From Synergistaceae bacterium (GTDB lineage Bacteria; Synergistota; Synergistia; Synergistales; Synergistaceae), in NCBI GenBank assembly GCA_021372895.1, contig JAJFTP010000064.1, forward strand, positions 1 to 38,077: a stretch of DNA of 38,077 nt, read 5' to 3'. The notes beneath the pieces are model-generated. The model did no database searches, had not been told where the DNA came from, and saw only the letters and a program-made list of their open reading frames with translations. Of the stretch, positions 22,593-34,092 are shown piece by piece. Numbering within the stretch: position 1 is the stretch's first letter; each line of letters opens with the position of its first letter. The translations under genes and the position numbers were made by a program.

Positions 22593-23465
22593 TCAGTAGT
22601 TGATGGGATAACCTTCCTCGCGGACAAGTTTGATATATCGGTCCCTGATTTCCGCAGTTATAGGACCTATTCCGCCCTCTCCTACTTCACGCCCGTCGAT
22701 TTTTGCAACCGGCACGACTTCAGCCGCAGTTCCCGAGATAAAAATCTCATCAGCCGAGTAAAGGTCAAAACGGTTCATAAACGTCTCCTGGACAGGCAGA
22801 CCCATCTTCTCGGCTATTTCTATAACCGCCCTGCGCGTGATCCCCAGAAGGATCCCGATACCGGGATGCGGGGTCTTGACTATCCCGTCCTTGACAACGA
22901 ATACATTGTCTCCGGTGCACTCGGCCACGTAGCCCTCGCGCGACATGCAGATGGCCTCGACCGCCCCCGCGTTATGGGCCTCAAGACGAGCCATTATGCT
23001 CGGAAGATAATTAAGGCTCTTGATCTGCGGGGCAAGCACTTCTCCATAGTTGCGCCTGGTAGGCGGAACTATGACCGTTATCCCCTTGCGGACCTCTTCC
23101 TCGGGATATAGTGCGATCTGGCAGGCAATGCATATTATCGTGGGATTCTTCTTAGTAACCGGGTTAAGTCCCATATCTCCACAGCCCCGTGTCGCGATGA
23201 GTCGGATGTATGCATCCTTCATATTGTTCCTGCCGCATGTGTCGGCGACAATTTTGCACATCTCCTGCTTAGTCTCCTTGAGCTTGAGCGCGATCGCTTT
23301 GGCAGAGTCGTAAAAACGGTTTATATGTTCCTCAAGGCGGAAAACGCGCCCGTTGTAGGCACGGATCCCCTCAAAGATACCATCACCGTAAAGGAGCCCT
23401 GAGTCAAATACCGATATCTTTGCCTCGTCCTCATTATAGAATTTACCGTCAAGATATATCTGCAT
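22593..23465 (-). CDS. ilvE: Branched-chain amino-acid aminotransferase
   Basis: Class IV PLP aminotransferase, 290 residues, doing the last step of Val, Ile and Leu synthesis (or the first catabolic step). The PLP Lys is Lys149 in QIKSLNYLPSIMA. The early FEGIRAYNGRVFRLEEH segment and the C-terminal EIFISGTAAEVVPV phosphate-binding loop fit IlvE. A D-amino-acid aminotransferase is a lesser alternative. It is the last gene of the ilv-leu operon, 86 bases after ilvD, and ends at the bidirectional terminator. Confidence 0.92.
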   Translation of the reverse strand: MQIYLDGKFYNEDEAKISVFDSGLLYGDGIFEGIRAYNGRVFRLEEHINRFYDSAKAIALKLKETKQEMCKIVADTCGRNNMKDAYIRLIATRGCGDMGLNPVTKKNPTIICIACQIALYPEEEVRKGITVIVPPTRRNYGEVLAPQIKSLNYLPSIMARLEAHNAGAVEAICMSREGYVAECTGDNVFVVKDGIVKTPHPGIGILLGITRRAVIEIAEKMGLPVQETFMNRFDLYSADEIFISGTAAEVVPVAKIDGREVGEGGIGPITAEIRDRYIKLVREEGYPINY

Positions 23466-23551: not shown

Positions 23552-25234
23552 TTAGGCCTTGCCCTCGCTCAAACTGTTTTTGAGTACCGCGCCCTCAACT
23601 CCGGAGGTCACAAATGCCCTGTAGCGTTCCAGGAACGGGCTGTCCGTGGGCTGCAGCCGCGGGACGAAATGCTTTCTGCGCTCCTCGAGGACTTCTTCGC
23701 CTACCATCAGATCAAGCCTTTTTCCCGGGATATCGATGGAGATCATATCGCCCTCCTCAACAAGTCCTATTGGCCCTCCATCTGCAGCCTCAGGCGAGAC
23801 ATGGCCGATTGAAGCGCCCCGCGTCGCACCGGAGAAACGCCCATCGGTGATGAGAGCGACTGAGTTGCCCTTGCCTTGCCCCATTATGGCCGAAGTCGGA
23901 GTAAGCATCTCTCTCATGCCGGGGCCTCCTTTCGGACCTTCGCAGCGAATAACGACGACATCCCCCTCCCTTATTTCATTGTTCAGGATGGCTTTGCTGG
24001 CGTCCTCCTCACATTCAAATACGCGCGCGGGGCCTTTGTGGACAAGCATTTCAGGGGCCACCGCAGACTGTTTTACTATTGCCCCAAGAGGCGCAAGCGT
24101 CCCTTTTATAAAAGCGAGACCTCCCTCTTTGTGATAGGGTCTGTCAACGGGACGGATCACCTCGTCATTTACGACTTCGGCGTTTTTAAGGTTTTCCCGC
24201 ACAGTCCGGGTAGTTACGGTTATGGCCTCTCCGCTGATAAGCCGCTTTTCAAGGAGCCTTGCCATCAGTCCCTGGATCCCGCCTGCCGCCCATAGGTCCT
24301 CTATATGGTGCTGACCGCCGGGACTCATAGAACACAGGTGCGGAACCCTTGAACCAATTTCGTTGAAAGTATCCAACGATAGCTTGAGGCCGGCCGCCCA
24401 TGCTATCGCCGGAAGGTGGAGAGATGTGTTTGTCGAGCCGCCAAGCGCCAGATCAACTGCTTCCGCGTTGTCGACAGCCTCTTTAGTGAGGATGTCGCGC
24501 GGCCTGATGTTCTTTTCGATCAGGGCCATTATTGCGCGGCCGGCATCCTTAGCGAGACGGATCCGCCCTGCGTGGACCGCCGGTATAGTCCCGTTGCCCG
24601 GAAGACCGAGACCGAGCGCCTCCATCATGCAGTTCATAGTATTTGCCGTAAACATGCCGGAGCAGGAACCACAGCCTGGACATGCGTTGTCCTCTATCTC
24701 GTGCAGTCCCTCATCAGTGATCATGCCTGCGGCTTTCATGCCGACGCCCTCAAAGACACTGTTCAAGTCAAGTGTTTTGCCGTTGAGCTTACCTGCCATC
24801 ATCGGACCGCCGGATATCACTACGGCAGGAAGGTTAAGCCTTGCGGCGGCCATAGCCATGCCTGGGATTATCTTGTCACAGTTAGGCACCATCACAAGAC
24901 CGTCAAAGGCATGCGCACGCACCATTACTTCAATGGAGTCCATTATCAGTTCCCTGCTTGGAAGGGAGAACTTCATCCCTTCGTGGTTCATCGCTATGCC
25001 GTCGCAAACCCCGATCACAGGAAACTCTATAGGGAGGCCTCCTGCCGCATATATGCCGGCTTTTACAGCTTCGGTGATCGTCCTGAGATGGACGTGCCCC
25101 GGAATTATCGCGTTATACGAATTCGCCACCCCGACCCACGGACGTTCTATCTCCCAGTCCGTATATCCTGATGCTTTCATCAGTGCACGATGAGGGCTTC
25201 TTTGGTAGCCTTTCTTGGTTTTGTCGCTGTTCAT
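23552..25234 (-). CDS. ilvD: Dihydroxy-acid dehydratase
   Basis: Iron-sulfur dehydratase, 560 residues, third common step of Val/Ile synthesis. Cluster-ligand regions are Cys119 in NCDKIIPGM and Cys185/188/191 in [18 protein letters not shown]. The product-side loop [14 protein letters not shown] lies near residue 466. The early Cys of the PCN motif seen in many [2Fe-2S]-type enzymes is not present ([11 protein letters not shown]), which suggests the other, E. coli-like cluster class. It starts 12 bases after the ilvB stop with AGGGGG as binding site. Confidence 0.95.
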
Positions 25235-25246
25235 TTCTGATGCCCC

Positions 25247-26929
25247 CTAATTTAAAATCATTTTGTCTATTGCTCCGCCGGGCGGGACCATGGGAAGAAC
25301 AAGCGCGTCCTGCGGTATCCTGAAATCGACAAGTGCCGGCCCCGGCACCTCGAGAGCGGCCTCTATCGTACTTCTGATCTCATCGGGCTGCGTCGCAGAG
25401 AACCCTTTTACTCCCATGCCCTCCGCTATCTTTACGAAATCAGGATCACGGCTATAGATCGTGTTTGAATAACGGTGGTCATAGAAGAGCTGCTGCCACT
25501 GGCGCACCATGCCAAGGCATGAGTTGTTCAGTATGAACACCTTTACAGGAATATTGTGGCGTGCGCATGTATCAAGCTCCTGTATGTTCATCATAAAGCT
25601 TCCGTCACCTGCGATGCAGCAGATATGCTGTTTCGGGCAGGCAAGCGCCGCGCCTATCGCGGCAGGAAAACCAAAGCCCATGGTGCCGAGGCCTCCCGAG
25701 GTAACAAAACGCCGCGGCTCCTCCACCCTGTAGTGCTGTGCCGTCCACATCTGGTGCTGCCCGACTTCCGTCGTGACTATCGCCTTGCCGCCCGTAACTT
25801 CGCGCAGGGTTTCGATGACCTGCCACGGGGCTATTGCCCCCTCGATCTCGTCTCTCGGGAGCGGTTCCTTCTTTCTCATCTGGTCTATGTCTTCGGACCA
25901 GATTTTGCGGTCGTAATTTTTCTTCTTCATAGATTTGAAGAAAATATCAAGAATATACCCGGCATCACCGATAAGCCACACATCTGTGCCAATGGTCTTG
26001 TCTATCTCAGCCTGGTCCAGATCAATGTGGATTATTTTTGCGTCGGCTCCAAAACGCGCCCTGTTTCCGGTGCTCCTGTCGCTGAAACGTGAACCGATCG
26101 CGAGGATTACATCCGCACCCATGAGAGCCCGGTTTGCGACCGGATGCCCGTGCATGCCGGCCATCCCGAGAGAAAGTCCGAGCGGATGTGACTCAGGAAA
26201 CGCTCCCTTTCCCAGCAGGGAGGTAACGACCGGGATTTCGAGTTTTTCAGCGAAGTTCGTGAGTTTTGCCGCTGCCCCGGAACGGATGACACCTCCGCCG
26301 GCAAATATAACCGGGCGCTGTGCACGTTCAAGTATAGACACAGCTTCGTCAAGACGACTGATATCAAGCGCGGTTTCCGGATGATACCCCTTAAAATCAA
26401 CTTTATCAGGATATACGAATTCACCGCAATTCTTCTGCACATCCGCTGGTATATCAATAAGAACCGGACCCTGCCTGCCTGTCGATGCAAGATAGAACGC
26501 CTTCTTTATAGCCGGCGCTATCTGCTCGGGTGTACGGACCTGCATGCTGTGTTTTACGACAGGGAGGGTTATTCCCATGATATCCGCTTCCTGGAACGCA
26601 TCGGTGCCTATAACATTTGTAGCGACCTGCCCCGTGATTGCAATCATCGGGACGGAGTCCAGATTTGCAGTAGCTATGCCGGTCACCAGGTTCGTTGCGC
26701 CCGGACCGGAAGTAGCGATACATACACCGGGACGTCCGCTGACTCTGGCATAACCATCCGCAGCATGTGCCGCAGCCTGCTCATGGCGCATCAAGATGTG
26801 ATTTATCTTCGAACCGTAGATCGCATCATAGAGATGGATAACCGTGCCTCCCGGAAGCCCGAACACCGTATCGACTCCCTCTGCCTCGAGAGATCTCACC
26901 ACCATCTCCGCACCGCACATTTTGGACAT
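25247..26929 (-). CDS. ilvB: Acetolactate synthase, large (catalytic) subunit
   Basis: TPP/FAD enzyme, 560 residues, first common step of branched-chain synthesis: two pyruvate to acetolactate, or pyruvate plus 2-oxobutyrate to acetohydroxybutyrate. The catalytic Glu is in RHEQAAAHAADGYAR (near residue 45). The FAD/central domain spans about 190-330. The TPP motif GDGSFMMNIQEL is near residue 441. It is preceded by GGGGAG. Its regulatory partner ilvH is the first gene of the operon, about 5.8 kb upstream with six other genes between, which is an unusual separation. A 96-base gap before it holds no clear internal promoter. Confidence 0.95.
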   Translation of the reverse strand: MSKMCGAEMVVRSLEAEGVDTVFGLPGGTVIHLYDAIYGSKINHILMRHEQAAAHAADGYARVSGRPGVCIATSGPGATNLVTGIATANLDSVPMIAITGQVATNVIGTDAFQEADIMGITLPVVKHSMQVRTPEQIAPAIKKAFYLASTGRQGPVLIDIPADVQKNCGEFVYPDKVDFKGYHPETALDISRLDEAVSILERAQRPVIFAGGGVIRSGAAAKLTNFAEKLEIPVVTSLLGKGAFPESHPLGLSLGMAGMHGHPVANRALMGADVILAIGSRFSDRSTGNRARFGADAKIIHIDLDQAEIDKTIGTDVWLIGDAGYILDIFFKSMKKKNYDRKIWSEDIDQMRKKEPLPRDEIEGAIAPWQVIETLREVTGGKAIVTTEVGQHQMWTAQHYRVEEPRRFVTSGGLGTMGFGFPAAIGAALACPKQHICCIAGDGSFMMNIQELDTCARHNIPVKVFILNNSCLGMVRQWQQLFYDHRYSNTIYSRDPDFVKIAEGMGVKGFSATQPDEIRSTIEAALEVPGPALVDFRIPQDALVLPMVPPGGAIDKMILN

Positions 26930-27025: not shown

Positions 27026-28153
27026 TCAAAACAGACTGATTATGCTCTTTCCCACATCTTCGAATGTTGCCTTCCCGCCGAATTCGAAAGGAAGTTCCTC
27101 TATTCCCGCATGTTCCAGAAAATATGAGACAGAGTTCTCAACCGCAGCCGAGGCTCCAGTCTCTCCAAGATGCTGGAGCAAAAGAGCCCCGGACAGTATA
27201 GCCGCCACCGGATTTGCCCTTCCCGTACCGGCAATGTCAGGCGCCGATCCGTGTACCGGCTCGAACATGGATAATCCGTCTCCTATATTCCCGCCTGCTG
27301 CAGTACCAAGGCCGCCTGCAAGCCCTGCCTGGAGATCGCTGATGATATCCCCGAATAGGTTCGGGCAGAGCAACACCCCATAGGCAGTAGGGTCCCTCAC
27401 AAGGTGATAGCACAGAGCATCGACGTTGACCATGGCATAGCTGAGCTCAGGGTATTCCTCCGCCATGACCCGCTTTGCCGTATCCTCAAAAAATCCGTAG
27501 AGGGCCGAAACTGCGTTTGACTTAGATACGATGGTAACTGTTTCCTCGCCGCGTTTTTTTGCCAGCCGGCACGCGTAGCGTGTGATTCTCTCTGCCCCCG
27601 GTCTGCTGTTTACCGCGACCTGCGCCGCAAACGGAAATGCGGGGTCTGTTTTGAGAGAGAGATTACCGACGAGTTTATAGCTCCCGCGTTCCACATTTAC
27701 AGGCATGTCCAGTTTTCCGTTTTCAGTCACAGAACCAATGCCCATGTAAAGGTCCTCCGTGTTCTCCCTGACGACGACCGAGTCTATCCGTTTACCGCCT
27801 AGCGGGACAGGAGTCGAGACTCGCGGAAGTGACAACGCGGGGCGCAGGTTCACATATTGATCGAAGCGGAAGCGCAACTCCAGCAGTATACCGCGTTCCA
27901 ATATACCGGGCCTGACCTTTGGGTCACCGATCGCGCCGAGCAACATTACATCACACTTTGACATCTCCTCTATCATATCTTCCGGCATTATCTCTCCGGT
28001 CGCAAGGTAGTGGCGCGCACCGCAGGGAAACTCCCTCCAGTCAAACAAAAATCCAAATTTTCCGCCGACCCTGTCAAGCACTTTACGCGCTTCGCCTATG
28101 ACCTCGGGGCCTATTCCGTCTCCGGCTATGACTGCAACTTTATATTTTTTCAT
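27026..28153 (-). CDS. leuB: 3-isopropylmalate dehydrogenase
   Basis: NAD-dependent decarboxylating dehydrogenase, 375 residues, third leucine step. The start VAVIAGDGIGPEV, the substrate-binding Arg run LLELRFRFDQYVNLRP (about 91-106), VVRENTEDLYMG and the metal site LFGDIISDLQAGLAGGLG are all present. Related enzymes (tartrate or homoisocitrate dehydrogenase) share these, but its place between leuD and ilvB makes LeuB much the best call. It begins 17 bases after leuD with a weak binding site (GAGAG). Confidence 0.93.
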   Translation of the reverse strand: MKKYKVAVIAGDGIGPEVIGEARKVLDRVGGKFGFLFDWREFPCGARHYLATGEIMPEDMIEEMSKCDVMLLGAIGDPKVRPGILERGILLELRFRFDQYVNLRPALSLPRVSTPVPLGGKRIDSVVVRENTEDLYMGIGSVTENGKLDMPVNVERGSYKLVGNLSLKTDPAFPFAAQVAVNSRPGAERITRYACRLAKKRGEETVTIVSKSNAVSALYGFFEDTAKRVMAEEYPELSYAMVNVDALCYHLVRDPTAYGVLLCPNLFGDIISDLQAGLAGGLGTAAGGNIGDGLSMFEPVHGSAPDIAGTGRANPVAAILSGALLLQHLGETGASAAVENSVSYFLEHAGIEELPFEFGGKATFEDVGKSIISLF

Positions 28154-28170: not shown

Positions 28171-28668
28171 CTATTTGCCGAGCCTGGCACGGACATACGG
28201 AACGAGCCCGCCAAGCCCGATGAGGTTCTGCAGGAATTCAGGGAATGGCTTTGCCTGATAGGTTTCGCCCTTCGTGATGTTGGTGATAATCCCCTTTGAA
28301 AGATCCGCCTCTATTTCGTCGCCTTTTGATATGCGGCCGGCTTCTGCGCACTCAAGTATAGGGAGCCCGATGTTTATCGCGTTGCGGTAAAAGATCCTTG
28401 CAAACGACGGCGCTATGACGCATGAAATCCCTGCGCCCTTTATGGCGAGCGGTGCGTGCTCACGGCTCGAACCGCAGCCAAAATTGCTGCCCGCCGCTAT
28501 CATGTCTCCTGCTTTCACCCCGCTCGCAAAAGTACTGTCTATGTCCTCCATGCAGTGCTGCGCAAGCACTTTTTGATCGCTCGTTACGAGATATCTCGCC
28601 GGGATTATGACGTCGGTGTCTACGTTATCTCCGTATACCCATGCCCTGCCTTTGAGTTTTGTCTCCAT
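28171..28668 (-). CDS. leuD: 3-isopropylmalate dehydratase, small subunit
   Basis: A 165-residue swivel subunit of the compact type found in archaea and many anaerobes. It opens with [21 protein letters not shown] and has the phosphate-loop [11 protein letters not shown] near residue 65. It pairs with the 422-residue LeuC encoded just before it (three-base gap). Its binding site GGGAGG lies inside the leuC end. Homoaconitase small subunits look similar, but the operon decides. Confidence 0.94.
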
Positions 28669-28671
28669 GCG

Positions 28672-29940
28672 CTACGCCTCCCGTACCGTGATATCTCTTG
28701 GATCGCAGATACAGCCCGTAACTGCCGCTGCCGCTGCGACAAGCGGCCCGGCAAGCACGACTTCGCTCTTCGGCGAACCCATTCTGCCGATGAAATTCCT
28801 GTTGCTCGTCGACACACAGCGTTCGCCGGCCGCCAGAATGCCAAGGTGTCCGCCGAGGCACGGCCCGCAGCTCGGTGTGCAAATGGAGGCTCCCGCATCG
28901 ATAAAGATATCGAATAGCCCCTCTTTCATCGCTGCACGGTACACTTCGTATGATGCGGGAATGACCATCAAGCGGACATTGGGATGGACCTTGTGTCCCC
29001 TGAGTATCTTTGCTGCCTGCTGCAGGTCGCGAAGACGCCCGTTCGTGCATGAGCCTATAAACACCTGATCGACCGGCGTCCCGGCTGCCTCGGATACGGG
29101 CCTGACGTTCTCCGGAAGATGCGGCATTGCGACCTGAGGCTCCATGGAAGAGGTATCTATATTGACCGTCTTCGAGTAAACGGCGTCACTGTCCGCATAG
29201 ACGGGTTCAAATTGGCGCGCCGCGCGTGCTTTGGCATAAGCGAGAAGCTTCTCGTCAGGGTTGATGAGCCCTGTCTTAGCCCCTGCCTCAACTGCCATAT
29301 TGGAGATGGTGAACCTGTCGTCAAGCGAAAGATGCCGCATCGCTTCACCGTGAAATTCAAGCGCCATGTAGCGTGCGCCTTCGACTCCGATCCTGCCGAT
29401 TAGGGCTAAAATCATGTCCTTGCCGCACAGCCACTCCGACGGCTTGCCGTCGTAAACGACCTTCATGGTCTCGGGAACGCGGAGCCAGGTCTCGCCAAGA
29501 GCCCATGCCGCAGCCAGGTCGGTCGAGCCGACGCCGGTCGCAAGCGCGCCCATAGCGCCGTGAGTGCAGGTGTGGCTGTCTGCGCCCAGGACTATCTCTC
29601 CCGGAAGCACAAGTCCGTTCTCCGGCAGGAATGCGTGTTCAACACCCACACGCCCGACCTCCCAGAAAAGCATACCCTGTTCCTTTGCAAATTCACGACA
29701 GGCCTTAACCTGTTCGGCGGAAGCAATATCTTTCGCCGGCGTGAAGTGATCCGGCAGAACGGCGCAGCGTTTCGCGTCAAAGACCTTCTCCGCACCCATA
29801 TTTTTGAATTCTTTTATCGCCGGCGGGCCGGTGATGTCGTTTGCAAAGGCGAAGTCAACGTTGACTCGGCAGATGGCCCCTGCCTCAACGTGATCCTTTG
29901 TATGCCCGGCGATAATAGCCTCAGCTAGCGTCATCGCCAT
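28672..29940 (-). CDS. leuC: 3-isopropylmalate dehydratase, large subunit
   Basis: Aconitase-family [4Fe-4S] subunit, 422 residues (the shorter, archaeal-like class). Cluster cysteines are in FIGSCTNGRLRDLQ and in PSCGPCLGGHLG. The DSHTCTHGAMGALATGVGSTD block is near residue 122. It isomerises 2- to 3-isopropylmalate with LeuD. Its ATG at 29940 overlaps the leuA end by 20 bases, and the strong site AAAGGAGGT lies inside leuA, so the two are coupled. Confidence 0.95.
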   Translation of the reverse strand: MAMTLAEAIIAGHTKDHVEAGAICRVNVDFAFANDITGPPAIKEFKNMGAEKVFDAKRCAVLPDHFTPAKDIASAEQVKACREFAKEQGMLFWEVGRVGVEHAFLPENGLVLPGEIVLGADSHTCTHGAMGALATGVGSTDLAAAWALGETWLRVPETMKVVYDGKPSEWLCGKDMILALIGRIGVEGARYMALEFHGEAMRHLSLDDRFTISNMAVEAGAKTGLINPDEKLLAYAKARAARQFEPVYADSDAVYSKTVNIDTSSMEPQVAMPHLPENVRPVSEAAGTPVDQVFIGSCTNGRLRDLQQAAKILRGHKVHPNVRLMVIPASYEVYRAAMKEGLFDIFIDAGASICTPSCGPCLGGHLGILAAGERCVSTSNRNFIGRMGSPKSEVVLAGPLVAAAAAVTGCICDPRDITVREA

Positions 29941-31474
29941 TCAGTCTGACCTCCTTTGCCGCCGCCGCAGCGTAGAGCCTGTTTGCAGCGTCAATGTAGG
30001 CCCTGAGAGAGGCTTCTATGATGTCTGTGCTGGTGCCGCGTCCCTGTGCCTGTACATCTTTATAGTGCAGTATCACGCGGGTCTCGCCCTGGGCATCAGA
30101 ACGCTCGCTCGTGGCCCCTATGCGGAAACCCTTGAGCTGAGGGTTGAACCCAAGTATCTTTCTTACCGCGTTATAGACGGCGTCGACCGGACCGTTTCCG
30201 GTAGCCGCTTCTGTGTAATCGACATCGCCTGACGTGAGGGTAACGCTCGCTGTCGGTTTACATCCCGTACCGACCTGCACAGCGAAATCCCTGAGCGTGA
30301 AGCGGCGTTCCGGTACAAAGGACAGGACTCTGTCCAGGATAAGGGCTTCGATGTCGCCGTCCGAGACATCTTTCTTTTTGTCACAAAGTTCCTTGAAATA
30401 GTTGAAGGCAACTTCCATATCATCATCACAGAGCTGGTAGCCAAGGCTCTCCACCCTGTCTCTGAAAGCATGGCGGCCTGAATGTTTTCCCAGTACGAGG
30501 TCGGATGCAGGCGCCCCTACCGTCTCCGGCGTCATTATCTCGTAAGTTGCGCGGTTGCAGAGCATCCCGTGCTGGTGTATCCCTGCCTCGTGAGCAAACG
30601 CGTTAAGACCTACAACTGCCTTGTTAGGCTGGACCATCACGCCGGTAAGATGGGAGACCAGCTTGCTGGTGCTGTAAAGTTTTGTAGTGTCTATGTTTGT
30701 CTTTGCGGAATAGTGGTCAGTTCGGGTATTGAGCGCCATGACGACCTCTTCCATAGAGGCGTTGCCTGCCCTCTCTCCGAGGCCGTTGACCGTGCACTCA
30801 ACCTGACGCACACCCGCCCTTACCGCAGCCAGTGAGTTCGCGACCGCAAGCCCGAGGTCGTTATGGCAGTGGACCGACCAGATAATATTTTCAGGCGGAT
30901 TGACTTCGGTCATTATATTACTTACAAAGTCAAAAAATTCCTCAGGCTGCGCATAACCGACAGTATCGGGTATGTTAAGCGTTGTTGCTCCGCATTCTAT
31001 AGCAGTCTTGAAAACTTCAATCAGGAAAGACAGCTCGGAGCGGCTGGCGTCCTCGGCGGAGAACTCTACGTCCTCCACAAGCGAACGGGCCAGCGTGACA
31101 CCGCTGCGGACTTCGGCAAGGACTCCTTCTTTGTCCATCTTGAGCTTATACTCCATGTGTATCGGACTTGTAGCGATAAATACATGTATACAGGGATGTT
31201 CGGCATCCTTTACGGCCTCTCCGGCCCTGCGTATGTCTTCCGCGCGCGTCCTTGCGAGTCCGGCGATGACAGGCCCCTTTATCTCGCGCGCAATTGCCTG
31301 CACCGACTCAAAATCTCCGGGCGATGCAGCCGGGAATCCGGCCTCTATGACATCAACTCCAAGCCTCGCAAGCTGGCGTGCTATCTGAAGTTTTTCACCC
31401 TTATTCAGATTTATATGCGCAGCCTGTTCGCCATCCCTCAGTGTCGTGTCAAAAATTCGTAAATGGTCTGTCAT
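29921..31474 (-). CDS. leuA: 2-isopropylmalate synthase
   Basis: First committed enzyme of leucine synthesis, 517 residues: acetyl-CoA plus 2-oxoisovalerate. The N-terminal DRE-TIM barrel carries DTTLRDGEQAAHINL and the metal site HCHNDLGLAVANS. The C-terminal regulatory domain (about 390-510), which mediates leucine feedback, is complete. Citramalate synthases share the barrel, but the neighbouring leuCDB and normal length favour LeuA. A GGAG site precedes ATG 31474. A 107-base gap before it contains an inverted repeat. Confidence 0.94.
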   Translation of the reverse strand: MTDHLRIFDTTLRDGEQAAHINLNKGEKLQIARQLARLGVDVIEAGFPAASPGDFESVQAIAREIKGPVIAGLARTRAEDIRRAGEAVKDAEHPCIHVFIATSPIHMEYKLKMDKEGVLAEVRSGVTLARSLVEDVEFSAEDASRSELSFLIEVFKTAIECGATTLNIPDTVGYAQPEEFFDFVSNIMTEVNPPENIIWSVHCHNDLGLAVANSLAAVRAGVRQVECTVNGLGERAGNASMEEVVMALNTRTDHYSAKTNIDTTKLYSTSKLVSHLTGVMVQPNKAVVGLNAFAHEAGIHQHGMLCNRATYEIMTPETVGAPASDLVLGKHSGRHAFRDRVESLGYQLCDDDMEVAFNYFKELCDKKKDVSDGDIEALILDRVLSFVPERRFTLRDFAVQVGTGCKPTASVTLTSGDVDYTEAATGNGPVDAVYNAVRKILGFNPQLKGFRIGATSERSDAQGETRVILHYKDVQAQGRGTSTDIIEASLRAYIDAANRLYAAAAAKEVRLNGDDAS

Positions 31475-31581: not shown

Positions 31582-32592
31582 CTAGAACTTCGGTATCTCC
31601 TTGGATTCCATCCATGGCATCATCTTGCGAAGTTCTTTGCCTACCTTTTCGCACTCTGCCTCCTGTGCGTTCTTGGCCCACTTTTTCATGCGCGGACGGC
31701 CTGTCTGGTTTTCAAGTATCCAGTCACGGGCAAAAGTTCCGTCCTGGATCTCATTCAGAAGCTGCTTCATTGCCTTGCGTGATTCTTCGCCGATGACGCG
31801 CGGTCCCGCAATCATGTCACCATACTTGGCAGTATCGCTGACTGAGTAACGCATCCAGCTCAGACCGCCTTCGAAGATCATATCTACGATGAGCTTCATC
31901 TCATTGATACACTCAAAATAAGCCATCTCCGGCTGATATCCGGCATCTACAAGGGTCTGGAACCCAGCCTGCATAAGTTCGCTTACGCCGCCGCACAACA
32001 CGGCCTGTTCTCCGAAAAGGTCTGTCTCTGTCTCCTCACGGAAGCTGGTTTCGATAATTCCCGCTCTGCCTCCGCCGATCGCCGAGGCATAGGCAAGCGC
32101 GAAATCCTTGGCCTTGCCGGATGCATCCTGATATACCGCGATCAGACAGGGAACTCCCTTGCCCTCCTTGTACATGCGGCGGACGATGTGTCCGGGCCCC
32201 TTGGGTGCAACCATAAATACATCATGGTCCGGACCGGGGACTATCTGTTCGAAGTGGACCGCAAAACCGTGGGCAAACGCGAGCTTGGTATCCTTTTTAA
32301 TGTTCGGAAGGACTTCGTTCTTGTAGATCTGGGCCTGAAGGTGGTCCGGGATGAGGAACATCACGGCATCAGCCTTCGCTGCCGCCTCGGCTACCGTATA
32401 GACCTCAAAACCGTCTTTCTCGGCGACCGCCTTTGACTTGCTTGTCGAGTGAAGTCCGATGATGACCTTCGCTCCGCTGTCGCGCAGGTTCTGTGCATGA
32501 GCATGACCCTGGCTGCCGTAACCGAATATCGCTATCGTCTTTCCATCAAGAAAACTAAGGTCTGCATCGCGGTCGTAATATACTTTTGCCAT
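31582..32592 (-). CDS. ilvC: Ketol-acid reductoisomerase (NADP+)
   Basis: Class I KARI, 336 residues, second common step of Val/Ile synthesis. The Rossmann motif [13 protein letters not shown] is at residues 24-36. The acid and His residues of the metal site are in the C-terminal knotted domain ([25 protein letters not shown]). Cofactor preference is not certain from the loop. It starts 96 bases after ilvH with GAAGGAG as its site. A small GGCCTC/GAGGCC hairpin lies in the gap. Confidence 0.95.
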
Positions 32593-32688: not shown

Positions 32689-33198
32689 TCATGCCATCTC
32701 TTCGGAATTCTCCGGCAGAAAACCTGAACGGGAGAGGGCGACCTGCCCCGATCCGGCAGTCTCGATAATGCCGTAAGGTTTGAGCGCCTCCATACAAGCG
32801 ATAAGCTTCCCTCTGTCACCGGTAACTTCGAGGGTGATCGCCTCTGCTCCGAGGTCGACGACACGACAGCGGAATATCTCCGCCGTCTGCAGCACGTGCG
32901 GACGCCTGTCGAGGGGAGCCCGTACCTTTACAAGGGCGAGCCAGCGCTCAACGAACGGTCCTTCCTGCGTAAGGTTGGTTACATCTATTACCTCTATGAG
33001 TTTAAGCAGCTGTTTGCGTATCTGCTCATAGACTCCTTCCTCACCTTCGATGACAACCGTGAAGCGCGACACTCCCGGAGTGTTTGTACTCCCTACGCTG
33101 AGGCTCTCGATATTGTAGCCTCTCCTGTAAATCAGGCCTGCGATACGCATAAGGACGCCCGGATTATCTTCCGACAGAATGCTGAAAGTATTCCTCAT
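32689..33198 (-). CDS. ilvH: Acetolactate synthase, small (regulatory) subunit
   Basis: A 169-residue regulatory subunit with an N-terminal ACT domain (SILSEDNPGVLMRIAGLIYR, then GYNIESLSVG) that binds valine, and the C-terminal ALS_ss domain (about 80-160). It is the first structural gene after the attenuator, and its ATG lies 32 bases beyond the poly-T end. It is separated from its catalytic partner ilvB by six genes. Confidence 0.94.
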   Translation of the reverse strand: MRNTFSILSEDNPGVLMRIAGLIYRRGYNIESLSVGSTNTPGVSRFTVVIEGEEGVYEQIRKQLLKLIEVIDVTNLTQEGPFVERWLALVKVRAPLDRRPHVLQTAEIFRCRVVDLGAEAITLEVTGDRGKLIACMEALKPYGIIETAGSGQVALSRSGFLPENSEEMA

Positions 33199-33229: not shown

Positions 33230-33264
33230 AAAAAAAAAACCGGGACCCCTGAGAGGGTCCCGGT
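33230..33264 (-). terminator. Attenuator terminator of the ilv-leu operon
   Basis: Minus-strand ACCGGGACCC pairs perfectly with GGGTCCCGGT (arms 33255-33264 and 33239-33248, six-base loop), followed by about ten T. It lies after the leader peptide stop and before ilvH. Its 5' arm (GGGACCC, 33255-33261) can instead pair seven bases with GGGTCCC (33303-33309) within the leader ORF, giving an antiterminator. Confidence 0.93.
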
Positions 33265-33282
33265 CCGAAAGTAACACGACGT

Positions 33283-33384
33283 CTAAGCGTCGGCCACCTC
33301 GGGGGACCCGCCGCTAATAAGAAGTACCAGTACGAGAACGAGACTAAATACATCGGGTATAAAACTTGTTCTTCTCACAGCCAT
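33283..33384 (-). CDS. ilvL: ilv leader peptide (33 residues)
   Basis: A short minus-strand ORF starting at ATG 33384. The run SLVLVLVLLIS (residues 14-24) contains nine consecutive Leu, Val or Ile codons (CTC GTT CTC GTA CTG GTA CTT CTT ATT), an excess that only makes sense as a sensor of the charged tRNAs for the operon's products. The stop TAG (33283-33285) is within a small CGACG/CGTCG hairpin, followed by the terminator. AAGGTGG is the binding site; GTG 33378 (codon 3) is better spaced and may be the true start. The function matches E. coli ilvGMEDA and ilvBN leaders. The sequence itself is not one I recognise. Confidence 0.92.
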   Translation of the reverse strand: MAVRRTSFIPDVFSLVLVLVLLISGGSPEVADA

Positions 33385-33444
33385 CCCACCTTTTTGTGAC
33401 CTAAGCCAAAATATTCCCCACGGGGGTTTTGTATATTGCAGGAC

Positions 33445-33473
33445 ATAATAAGGCACCTTTTCCTTATTGTCAA
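33445..33473 (-). promoter_or_regulatory. Promoter of the ilv-leu operon
   Basis: Minus strand TTGACA (33468-33473), a 17-base spacer and TATTAT (33445-33450). Transcription would begin near 33438, giving a leader of about 240 bases to ilvH. TGTCAA also occurs at 33522-33527 and 33541-33546 upstream, which might be regulator sites. Confidence 0.85.
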
Positions 33474-33586
33474 CTTAATTTGCCGGAATTCCTTTAAAAT
33501 CCAAGCCGCGGAACAATAGTCTGTCAATTCCATAATAACGTGTCAACTCCCGAAAGATTTTCGGCATCATGTCATGCGCAATCAAG

Positions 33587-33615
33587 TTGCATTTTTGTGG
33601 AATTTATCGGATAAT
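33587..33615 (+). promoter_or_regulatory. Candidate promoter of the Fur-family gene
   Basis: TTGCAT (33587-33592), 17 bases, GATAAT (33610-33615). The -35 is weak. A CCGAAA/TTTCGG palindrome (33550-33564) lies just upstream and could be an operator. Confidence 0.4.
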
Positions 33616-33657
33616 CGAAATGATGTAATCAGGCAATCATCAGGAAGGGTGACAGAC

Positions 33658-34092
33658 ATGCAGGTAGAAAAAATTTTAAGCAGCGCCGGGCTTCGCATGA
33701 CGCGACAGCGGAAGGTCGTCCTCGAACTGCTGCTTGAAAACGGCTCTCCCCTCTCTCACAGTGAAATCTCGTCCATGCTGGATGAACCGCTGGACAAGGT
33801 GACCCTTTACAGGACTCTCCAGACGCTTCGATCCGCCGCGATCGTCCATCAGGTTCAGGGACTTGACGGGGTATGGCGTTTCTGCGCACACGATCCTGAT
33901 ACCAAGGGATGCCCCGGAGACCATCCGCACTTTCTCTGTCTTTACTGCGGAAAGATGTTCTGTCTGACTGATCAGCACCTGCCCAGGATAGAGGTGCCTG
34001 AAGGCATGAAAGTTGAGGGGAAGCAGCTCGTGGTTTACGGCTGCTGCCCTGAATGCGCACCAAAAAAGAAGGACGGAGAGGAGCAGCAATAG
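33658..34092 (+). CDS. Fur-family metal-responsive repressor
   Basis: A DNA-binding regulator, 144 residues. An N-terminal winged helix (AGLRMTRQRKVVLELL, then DKVTLYRTLQTL as recognition helix near 40-51) is followed by a dimerisation domain with HPHFLCLYCGKMFCL and a second Cys pair CCPEC, the structural zinc site. Zur, Fur and PerR subtypes cannot be separated with confidence. The start is ATG 33658, with GGAAGGG upstream; an in-frame ATG at 33574 is poorer. Its stop touches the start of the molybdopterin-binding gene, so the regulator, that gene and xdhC probably form one unit. Confidence 0.88.
   Translation: MQVEKILSSAGLRMTRQRKVVLELLLENGSPLSHSEISSMLDEPLDKVTLYRTLQTLRSAAIVHQVQGLDGVWRFCAHDPDTKGCPGDHPHFLCLYCGKMFCLTDQHLPRIEVPEGMKVEGKQLVVYGCCPECAPKKKDGEEQQ

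Follow-up and report, generated by a model that had tools for sequence, protein, structure and literature searches.

The ilv-leu operon and its leader

The window (the whole stretch of DNA analysed, 38,077 nucleotides from a Synergistaceae bacterium) carries on its minus strand a promoter, a short open reading frame (ORF) and a terminator, followed by the genes ilvN-ilvC-leuA-leuC-leuD-leuB-ilvB-ilvD-ilvE in that order (Table 1). The preliminary description of this DNA, made from the sequence alone, had compared the host with the Firmicutes; it belongs to the Synergistota, and its nearest named relatives in one scan of public genomes are Synergistaceae MAGs such as UBA6101. The promoter is of the sigma-70 type, with 11 of 12 consensus matches, and lies where it had been placed. 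The window holds a single instance of a looser pattern, TTGACA-N16-18-TATNAT, and 5 of 100 shuffled sequences contain one. Upstream of the promoter lies a divergent gene (33574-34092, plus strand) for a Fur-family regulator, its best match falling under the curated cut-off.

Table 1. Features of the leader and of the operon, with positions in the window
Feature	Positions	Strand	Remarks
Promoter, sigma-70 type	33445-33473	-	TTGACA 33473-33468, 17-base spacer, TATTAT 33450-33445
Leader peptide ORF	33283-33384	-	stop TAG 33285-33283; homologous starts in relatives
Sensing run	33316-33342	-	nine codons, Leu-Val-Leu-Val-Leu-Val-Leu-Leu-Ile; A-site -11 to -3
S2	33303-33309	-	GGGTCCC within the ORF; foot of the antiterminator 5' arm, imitating the terminator 3' arm
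Antiterminator hairpin	33255-33309	-	about 22 pairs; -33.8 kcal/mol with S4 absent
S3	33255-33263	-	terminator 5' arm, common to antiterminator and terminator
S4	33240-33248	-	terminator 3' arm
T tract	33230-33239	-	of the intrinsic terminator
ilvN	32689-33198	-	acetolactate synthase small subunit; first gene of the operon
ilvC	31582-32592	-	
leuA	29921-31474	-	
leuC	28672-29940	-	
leuD	28171-28668	-	
leuB-type dehydrogenase	27026-28153	-	from operon position; best matches under curated cut-offs
ilvB	25247-26929	-	large subunit
ilvD	23552-25234	-	
ilvE-type aminotransferase	22593-23465	-	last operon gene tested

The leader ORF can begin at an ATG (33384), giving 33 codons, or at a GTG (33378), giving 31. 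Because the Shine-Dalgarno sequence AGGTGGG (33391-33385) abuts the ATG, and because the starts of relatives align with the GTG, the GTG is more likely the true start. The nine-codon Leu/Val/Ile run noted earlier stands, while the 33-codon length given with it probably does not. The peptide reads MAVRRTSFIPDVFS-LVLVLVLLI-SGGSPEVADA, followed by the stop, and the run is encoded by CTC GTT CTC GTA CTG GTA CTT CTT ATT (33342-33316); its positions are numbered by the ribosomal A-site relative to the first antiterminator codon. LVLVLVLLI is the sole run of at least eight Leu/Val/Ile residues in the six frames of the window, and runs of at least nine arise once per 100 dinucleotide shuffles of the window. 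The Ile codon ATT makes up 69% of Ile codons in leaders and 15% in the genes of the window's operon, a reference of one genome.

Two hairpins that share an arm

The terminator (33263-33240) consists of nine Watson-Crick pairs and a tenth pair to which the first tail T contributes, with a predicted folding energy of -23.9 kcal/mol. Its earlier description as ten perfect pairs with a ten-T tail identified the right structure and counted the first tail T twice. The alternative pairing of GGGTCCC (33309-33303) with GGGACCC (33261-33255) is likewise present, and it is just the foot of a much longer structure, the 22-pair antiterminator. The apical loop of this hairpin (33287-33282) contains the TAG stop codon of the leader, and its 5' arm is formed by the final third of the ORF. 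Because S3 is common to both hairpins, antiterminator and terminator are mutually exclusive. A search of the window against Rfam gave no family at threshold; the T-box (RF00230) was not matched, and the sub-threshold matches over the leader belong to unrelated families, the T-box not among them. This agrees with the earlier remark that no T-box sequence is visible here.

Conservation and covariation upstream of ilvN

IlvN was matched in 134 of 185 Synergistota genomes, and upstream DNA was taken for 90 of the matches. One locus (L107) was left out for too weak a match, leaving 89, among them one (L004) with just 41 upstream bases; 18 loci (L031-L048) were left out as repeats of genomes already in the set. 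At least six Leu/Val/Ile residues within nine codons are found at 81 of the 89 loci, and a terminator as well at 78. In 76 of these 78 leaders S2 and S3 form a helix of at least six pairs; in the other two the predicted helix is absent. At three loci with a run the script found no T tract, and in three genomes (G123, G136 and G137) the S2 of the leader is unlike that of the others. At several of the leaderless loci ilvN lies after ilvB, as it does at all four checked in genus g37, where ilvN matches are weak and DNA was taken for part of them.

Of 74 distinct leaders, 61 could be placed in one alignment (A1), the other 13 being set aside for ragged terminator boundaries, an insertion or a different S2. 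In this alignment 97.5% of cells in the S2:S3 helix are paired, with changes on both sides in four of six pairs; for the terminator the figures are 96.9% and five of nine pairs. The covariation score of each helix was matched by none of 500 shuffles, and shifting the partner by one column lowers pairing to about 80% or less in both. The antiterminator fold has a median z of -3.29 among 69 distinct leaders, and 94 of 6900 shuffles are equally stable. In each of two clades the long hairpin also shows compensatory changes, at 6 of 20 pairs in one and 6 of 22 in the other, some of them adjoining the stop codon. The alignment of relatives, proposed earlier as a check, thus finds the ORF, its Leu/Val/Ile codons, the terminator and the alternative pairing kept phylum-wide, with both helices covarying.

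A few loci look different. Three in genus g21 (L089, L091 and L092) have long Leu/Val-rich ORFs, a strong hairpin and a weak T tract. In G136 and G137 (L069 and L070) ilvN is present in two tandem copies, the leader ORF stops directly after the run (VLVIVVVIILAGLLG, then stop) and the downstream structure is another one.

The run ends where stalling would cease to free the antiterminator

Equilibrium folding of the finished transcript was discarded as a test of the switch, as it gives the terminator nearly everywhere. With S4 included the terminator is the winning fold in most leaders at every A-site position, and the finished RNA forms the terminator plus a stop-codon hairpin in 60-67 of 73 leaders with A-sites from -14 to -4. 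In most leaders the finished transcript therefore folds as the terminator whatever the ribosome does, so the choice would have to be made during transcription, as a kinetic switch. The switch in known attenuators is also assumed to be kinetic. Such a model needs, and would depend on, the order of transcription and the rates of strand exchange.

We therefore folded nascent RNA instead, namely the RNA that has emerged when S3 is made and S4 is not yet. The A-site was set at each leader codon in turn and RNA was taken as free from 13 bases past the first base of the A-site; 68 leaders were folded, five without a clean stem being left out. For A-sites from -14 to -3 the antiterminator is the best nascent fold in 94-99% of the 68 leaders. 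The share falls to 37% at -2 and 16% at -1 to +1, and from +4 onwards there is none. Leu, Val or Ile occupies position -3 in 70 of 73 leaders and position -2 in 7 of 73. Since the nascent antiterminator is free to -3 and the Leu/Val/Ile residues end there, the run thus appears to end at the position past which stalling would no longer help. A stall "early in the run" had been proposed to free GGGTCCC; nascent folding agrees with the freeing, and any A-site from about -14 to -3 would serve. A separate protector arm, the 1:2 hairpin of trp and his attenuators, was considered and rejected as a general part: with no ribosome present, the predicted nascent fold is the antiterminator in 59 of the 68 leaders and a protector in 8. 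The window's own leader likewise gives the antiterminator.

The element in the window combines an ORF with a ribosome-binding site, a run of cognate codons, an intrinsic terminator and a covarying, mutually exclusive antiterminator, and in the nascent-RNA models of 68 leaders a stalled ribosome frees the antiterminator and a finishing one blocks it. We conclude with high confidence that it is a ribosome-mediated transcription attenuator of the kind represented by E. coli ilvL. A ribosome would halt in the run, at any codon up to -3, whenever the tRNA for Leu or Val (or Ile) is uncharged, and S2 would then be free to pair with S3 once S3 emerges; RNA polymerase would clear the T tract before S4 regains S3, and the nine-gene operon would be transcribed. 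With charged tRNAs the ribosome would reach the stop codon and cover the 5' arm of the antiterminator, S3 would pair with S4, and the transcript would end near 33230. The switch very probably turns on the Leu/Val/Ile genes in amino acid shortage, and relatives seem to reuse its chassis, carrying different run codons, ahead of genes for methionine, threonine and aromatic amino acids.

Run codons and the presence of leu genes

Leu codons are present at -11 to -3 in all 49 genomes whose operon includes leu genes. Where the operon has none, Leu codons are missing in 13 of 21 genomes and kept in 8. The association across the 70 scored genomes is strong when relatedness is ignored (Fisher p 4e-9). 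A tree of IlvN and IlvC yields six independent contrasts, two in the expected direction, none in the opposite and four without change (sign test p 0.5). Codon content thus appears to track operon content, with just two independent losses and not significantly so in phylogenetic terms.

A true LeuA is also missing from one clade without Leu codons, which suggests leucine auxotrophy; among 26 genomes searched for LeuA, 12 have only distant matches (about 35% identity or less) and 14 have a match of at least 60% identity. Where leuA lies elsewhere in the genome it mostly has a leader of its own there, containing Leu with few Val or Ile, for example SLCLLLGCRFPPGTPAA and SLLALALTSRGSHPGSIGV, each followed by a stop. 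In two genomes (G134 and G135; L209 and L216) a T-box precedes a gene about 30% identical to LeuA, and the ilv leader has no Leu codons.

One chassis before genes of several pathways

A covariance model (R1) was built from S2 to the T tract, beginning two codons before S2 and including no codon of the run. It matches 118 of 185 Synergistota genomes at E≤0.01, at many places away from ilvN. Ninety-nine matches were listed and, after nine without a locus were left out, 90 were read in 17 genomes. At 74 of the 90 an ORF in one fixed frame has a start, a Shine-Dalgarno sequence and a stop inside the match, although one of the 74 may be an assembly duplicate (in G120 the same leader occurs twice, L287 and L305, 240 bases apart amid unknown bases). 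Counted by frame relative to S2, 74 ORFs lie in frame 0 and 11 and 3 in the others.

Each next gene, classed with Pfam and NCBIfam, was set against the nine codons that precede S2; the rows are not independent, some being orthologues. Before methionine genes (12 rows; NlpA/MetQ lipoprotein, MetN with a NIL domain, MetY-type enzyme and MetX, one MetQ row being assigned by position or recognisable first residues) 3-7 of the nine residues are Met or Cys, with a mean of 5.08 against 0.45 in other rows. Homoserine dehydrogenase or aspartokinase genes (6 rows) are preceded by 2-7 Thr, mean 3.83 against 0.13 elsewhere. For ilv/leu genes (24 rows, most of them assigned by position or first residues) the mean is 6.96 Leu/Val/Ile, against 3.64 elsewhere. 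The remaining 32 compared rows have other or unassigned next genes. Among other matches, a Phe run precedes the gene for a family 3 solute-binding protein; panB follows a Val run; a sodium symporter and phenylacetate-CoA ligase-like genes follow Tyr/Phe/Trp runs; and Leu/Val/Ile runs precede TRAP and SNF transporters. Of these other kinds of leader 27 have a clean stem, and in 26 of them S2 and S3 form at least five pairs (median z -3.1); the S2:S3 core lies within the covariance model and the rest of the antiterminator hairpin outside it.

With a limit of E≤0.001, a mixed model (R2) built from 51 sequences has matches in 136 of 185 Synergistota genomes and in 57 of 62 genera. Under the looser limit of E≤0.01, G120 has 18 matches, of which a few are partial or overlap, and G032 has 10. 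A second set of 29 further R2 matches was read, mostly top-ranked and including one locus already seen (L387); 24 of the 29 have an ORF and 20 are annotated. Of these 20, 12 have at least four Met or Cys residues; 11 of the 12 lie before methionine genes and one is unassigned, and none of the 8 others lies before such a gene. Annotated leaders of the CAMTM type all precede aspartokinase (3 of 3), and one AILALALTL run precedes LeuA.

These patterns point to a single homologous family of leader attenuators in the Synergistota, which has probably multiplied within genomes and been re-targeted by swapping the roughly nine sensing codons. The kinds of run seen are Leu/Val/Ile, Leu, Val, Met/Cys, Thr/Met, Phe and Tyr/Phe/Trp, and the richest genome seen, G120, has about a dozen family leaders. 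The window's own genome (G000) holds a second one (L349, contig C78:44580-44669, minus strand; EMMSMIMCGKGGSSPGTAGV, then stop), whose run EMMSMIMCG precedes the gene for a NlpA/MetQ-type lipoprotein.

Several R1 loci without a frame-0 ORF are leaders whose register is shifted; examples of such runs are MMMCMM and, from the second set, FAFTYYYA. In eight matches (L401, L403, L405, L331, L308, L298, L363 and L323) the register is shifted by one base and VGPP or EGP replaces CGSPP. The runs of the shifted matches are mostly aromatic, several lying before phenylacetate-CoA ligase-like genes, and these matches possibly form a second subfamily. Leu/Val/Ile leaders are also found before hydratase-like, FAD oxidoreductase and lactate-permease-like genes and SNF symporters (L284, L282, L311, L312, L340, L336, L320, L339 and L357). 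Judged by such neighbours, the regulated set may include catabolism and transport besides synthesis.

Alternative explanations

The ORF before ilvN might instead encode a small hydrophobic membrane peptide with a function of its own, ahead of an ordinary terminator and with no translation-based regulation. A nine-residue Leu/Val/Ile stretch does look membrane-like, and one clade retains within its run an Arg (VVVVRII) for which a leader has no need. Yet the C-terminal part of the peptide varies while the RNA pairing stays, the run ends at a set distance from the RNA hairpin, and similar leaders carry Met, Thr or Tyr/Phe runs, which would not yield a single kind of membrane peptide; we consider this reading very improbable. 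It also seems most unlikely that stalling results from an effector or from the nascent peptide inside the exit tunnel, and not from uncharged tRNA at the run. Leader peptides responding to drugs or metabolites do in some cases act in this way, and hydrophobic repeats could retard translation, but the order of residues within the run varies across the phylum and the run residue tracks the pathway of the next gene (Met+Cys 5.08 against 0.45; Thr 3.83 against 0.13), an expectation that held in 11 of 12 cases in the second set. T-boxes are common in these bacteria: at E≤0.001, 133 of 185 Synergistota genomes have a match, and the window's genome has three. Control of the operon by a T-box or a small-molecule riboswitch was nevertheless dropped, and we give it hardly any weight, as no Rfam family reaches threshold in the window and the conserved RNA consists of two competing hairpins and an ORF.

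How the chassis came to be shared between pathways is less settled. Convergence on GC-rich S2, S3 and S4, in place of duplication with codon exchange, is a possibility that we take seriously without favouring it. S2 has to mimic S4, a strong terminator needs a high GC content, E. coli ilvL shows this topology too, and an aromatic subset is offset from the register of the model. The leaders nevertheless have stretches in common beyond the S2:S3 core, such as CCTCCTGGAG and the encoded GSPPG, and most of them lie in one reading frame relative to S2 (74, against 11 and 3). Duplication is thus the likely source of the chassis copies.

Relation to known attenuators

Leader-peptide attenuation is a textbook mechanism, mostly described operon by operon in Proteobacteria, Actinobacteria and a few Firmicutes. 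The closest parallel considered here is ilvL of E. coli K-12, the leader of ilvXGMEDA. It has a Val/Ile/Leu run in a leader of 32 codons, S2 in the ORF immediately behind the run, and a long antiterminator with the stop codon in its loop; folded by a like script, it gives 11 pairs between the ORF and the terminator 5' arm. The logic of enterobacterial ilv attenuation, invoked in the preliminary description, is therefore supported, E. coli ilvL folding with the same topology. The two differ in phylum and in terminator and peptide sequence, and the window's operon also includes leuACDB. The likeness seen is one of topology, between sequences that are short, those of the window matching no Rfam family. 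E. coli ivbL, leuL and thrL likewise combine a leader peptide containing product codons with a terminator, and thrL is the functional counterpart of the Synergistota Thr/Met leaders before homoserine dehydrogenase. No common sequence chassis was seen among the E. coli leaders compared, whereas the Synergistota leaders of different pathways have one.

Translation-dependent attenuation with a terminator and an antiterminator is also described for the branched-chain operon ilvBNC of Corynebacterium glutamicum, an actinobacterium, where the 15-residue leader adjoins the transcription start and a three-hairpin model applies (PMC11857589; PMC10272879). The ilv-leu operon of Staphylococcus aureus is preceded by a leader peptide attenuator and not by a T-box; it differs in belonging to the Firmicutes and in being Leu-responsive and combined with CodY, and there is reporter evidence for the Leu response of the Leu-rich leader (PMC5794164). 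Histidine leaders of Firmicutes, predicted by comparison, are a further case outside Proteobacteria and Actinobacteria; they concern one pathway in few lineages, with no reuse across pathways in the available portions of the reports (PMC9413887, PMC2965389). For histidine genes of Synergistetes a DNA-binding regulator, HisR, is reported (PMC9413887). In 2010 Proteobacteria and Actinobacteria were named as the groups with known leader-peptide systems, and bacilli were added to them (PMC2965389); a structured-RNA survey that included a Synergistetes genome names no leader attenuator in its accessible part (PMC6429828). A literature search that covered few subscription papers found no description of leader attenuators in Synergistetes, of Met-run leaders or of such a family, in keeping with the earlier impression that attenuation is little described in this phylum. 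What is new is the modular, phylum-wide family, one chassis with exchanged sensing codons, Met runs included; the mechanism, of the E. coli ilvL type, is already known.

In the Synergistota, whose members ferment amino acids, leader-peptide attenuation seems to work phylum-wide as a general-purpose system. Its sensing part amounts to about nine codons adjoining an RNA part that stays the same, so that changes of specificity are directly visible in the sequence: leaders are Leu-less in a clade that has no true LeuA, and split leu operons have Leu leaders. If the family reading is true, its attenuators would include some that sense methionine and serve import and fermentation genes besides biosynthesis, and the family yields testable regulatory predictions for many genes of little-studied bacteria.

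The T-box regulons of Firmicutes offer a comparison, as they too place one RNA chassis before many amino acid operons, with a few nucleotides setting the specificity. T-boxes bind uncharged tRNA directly, whereas in the Synergistota leaders the ribosome reads the codons. The family, if real, would do by way of the ribosome what the T-box regulon does, and would have been retained alongside T-boxes. Since T-boxes and leader attenuators are found in one genome, both tRNA-sensing systems coexist in the Synergistota. The T-box matches exceed the family cut-off in 47 of the 133 genomes that have them. In the window's genome (C11:16879-17125 and C76:2123-2354), argG follows one T-box match, and another is found upstream of genes for ECF transporter ATPases.
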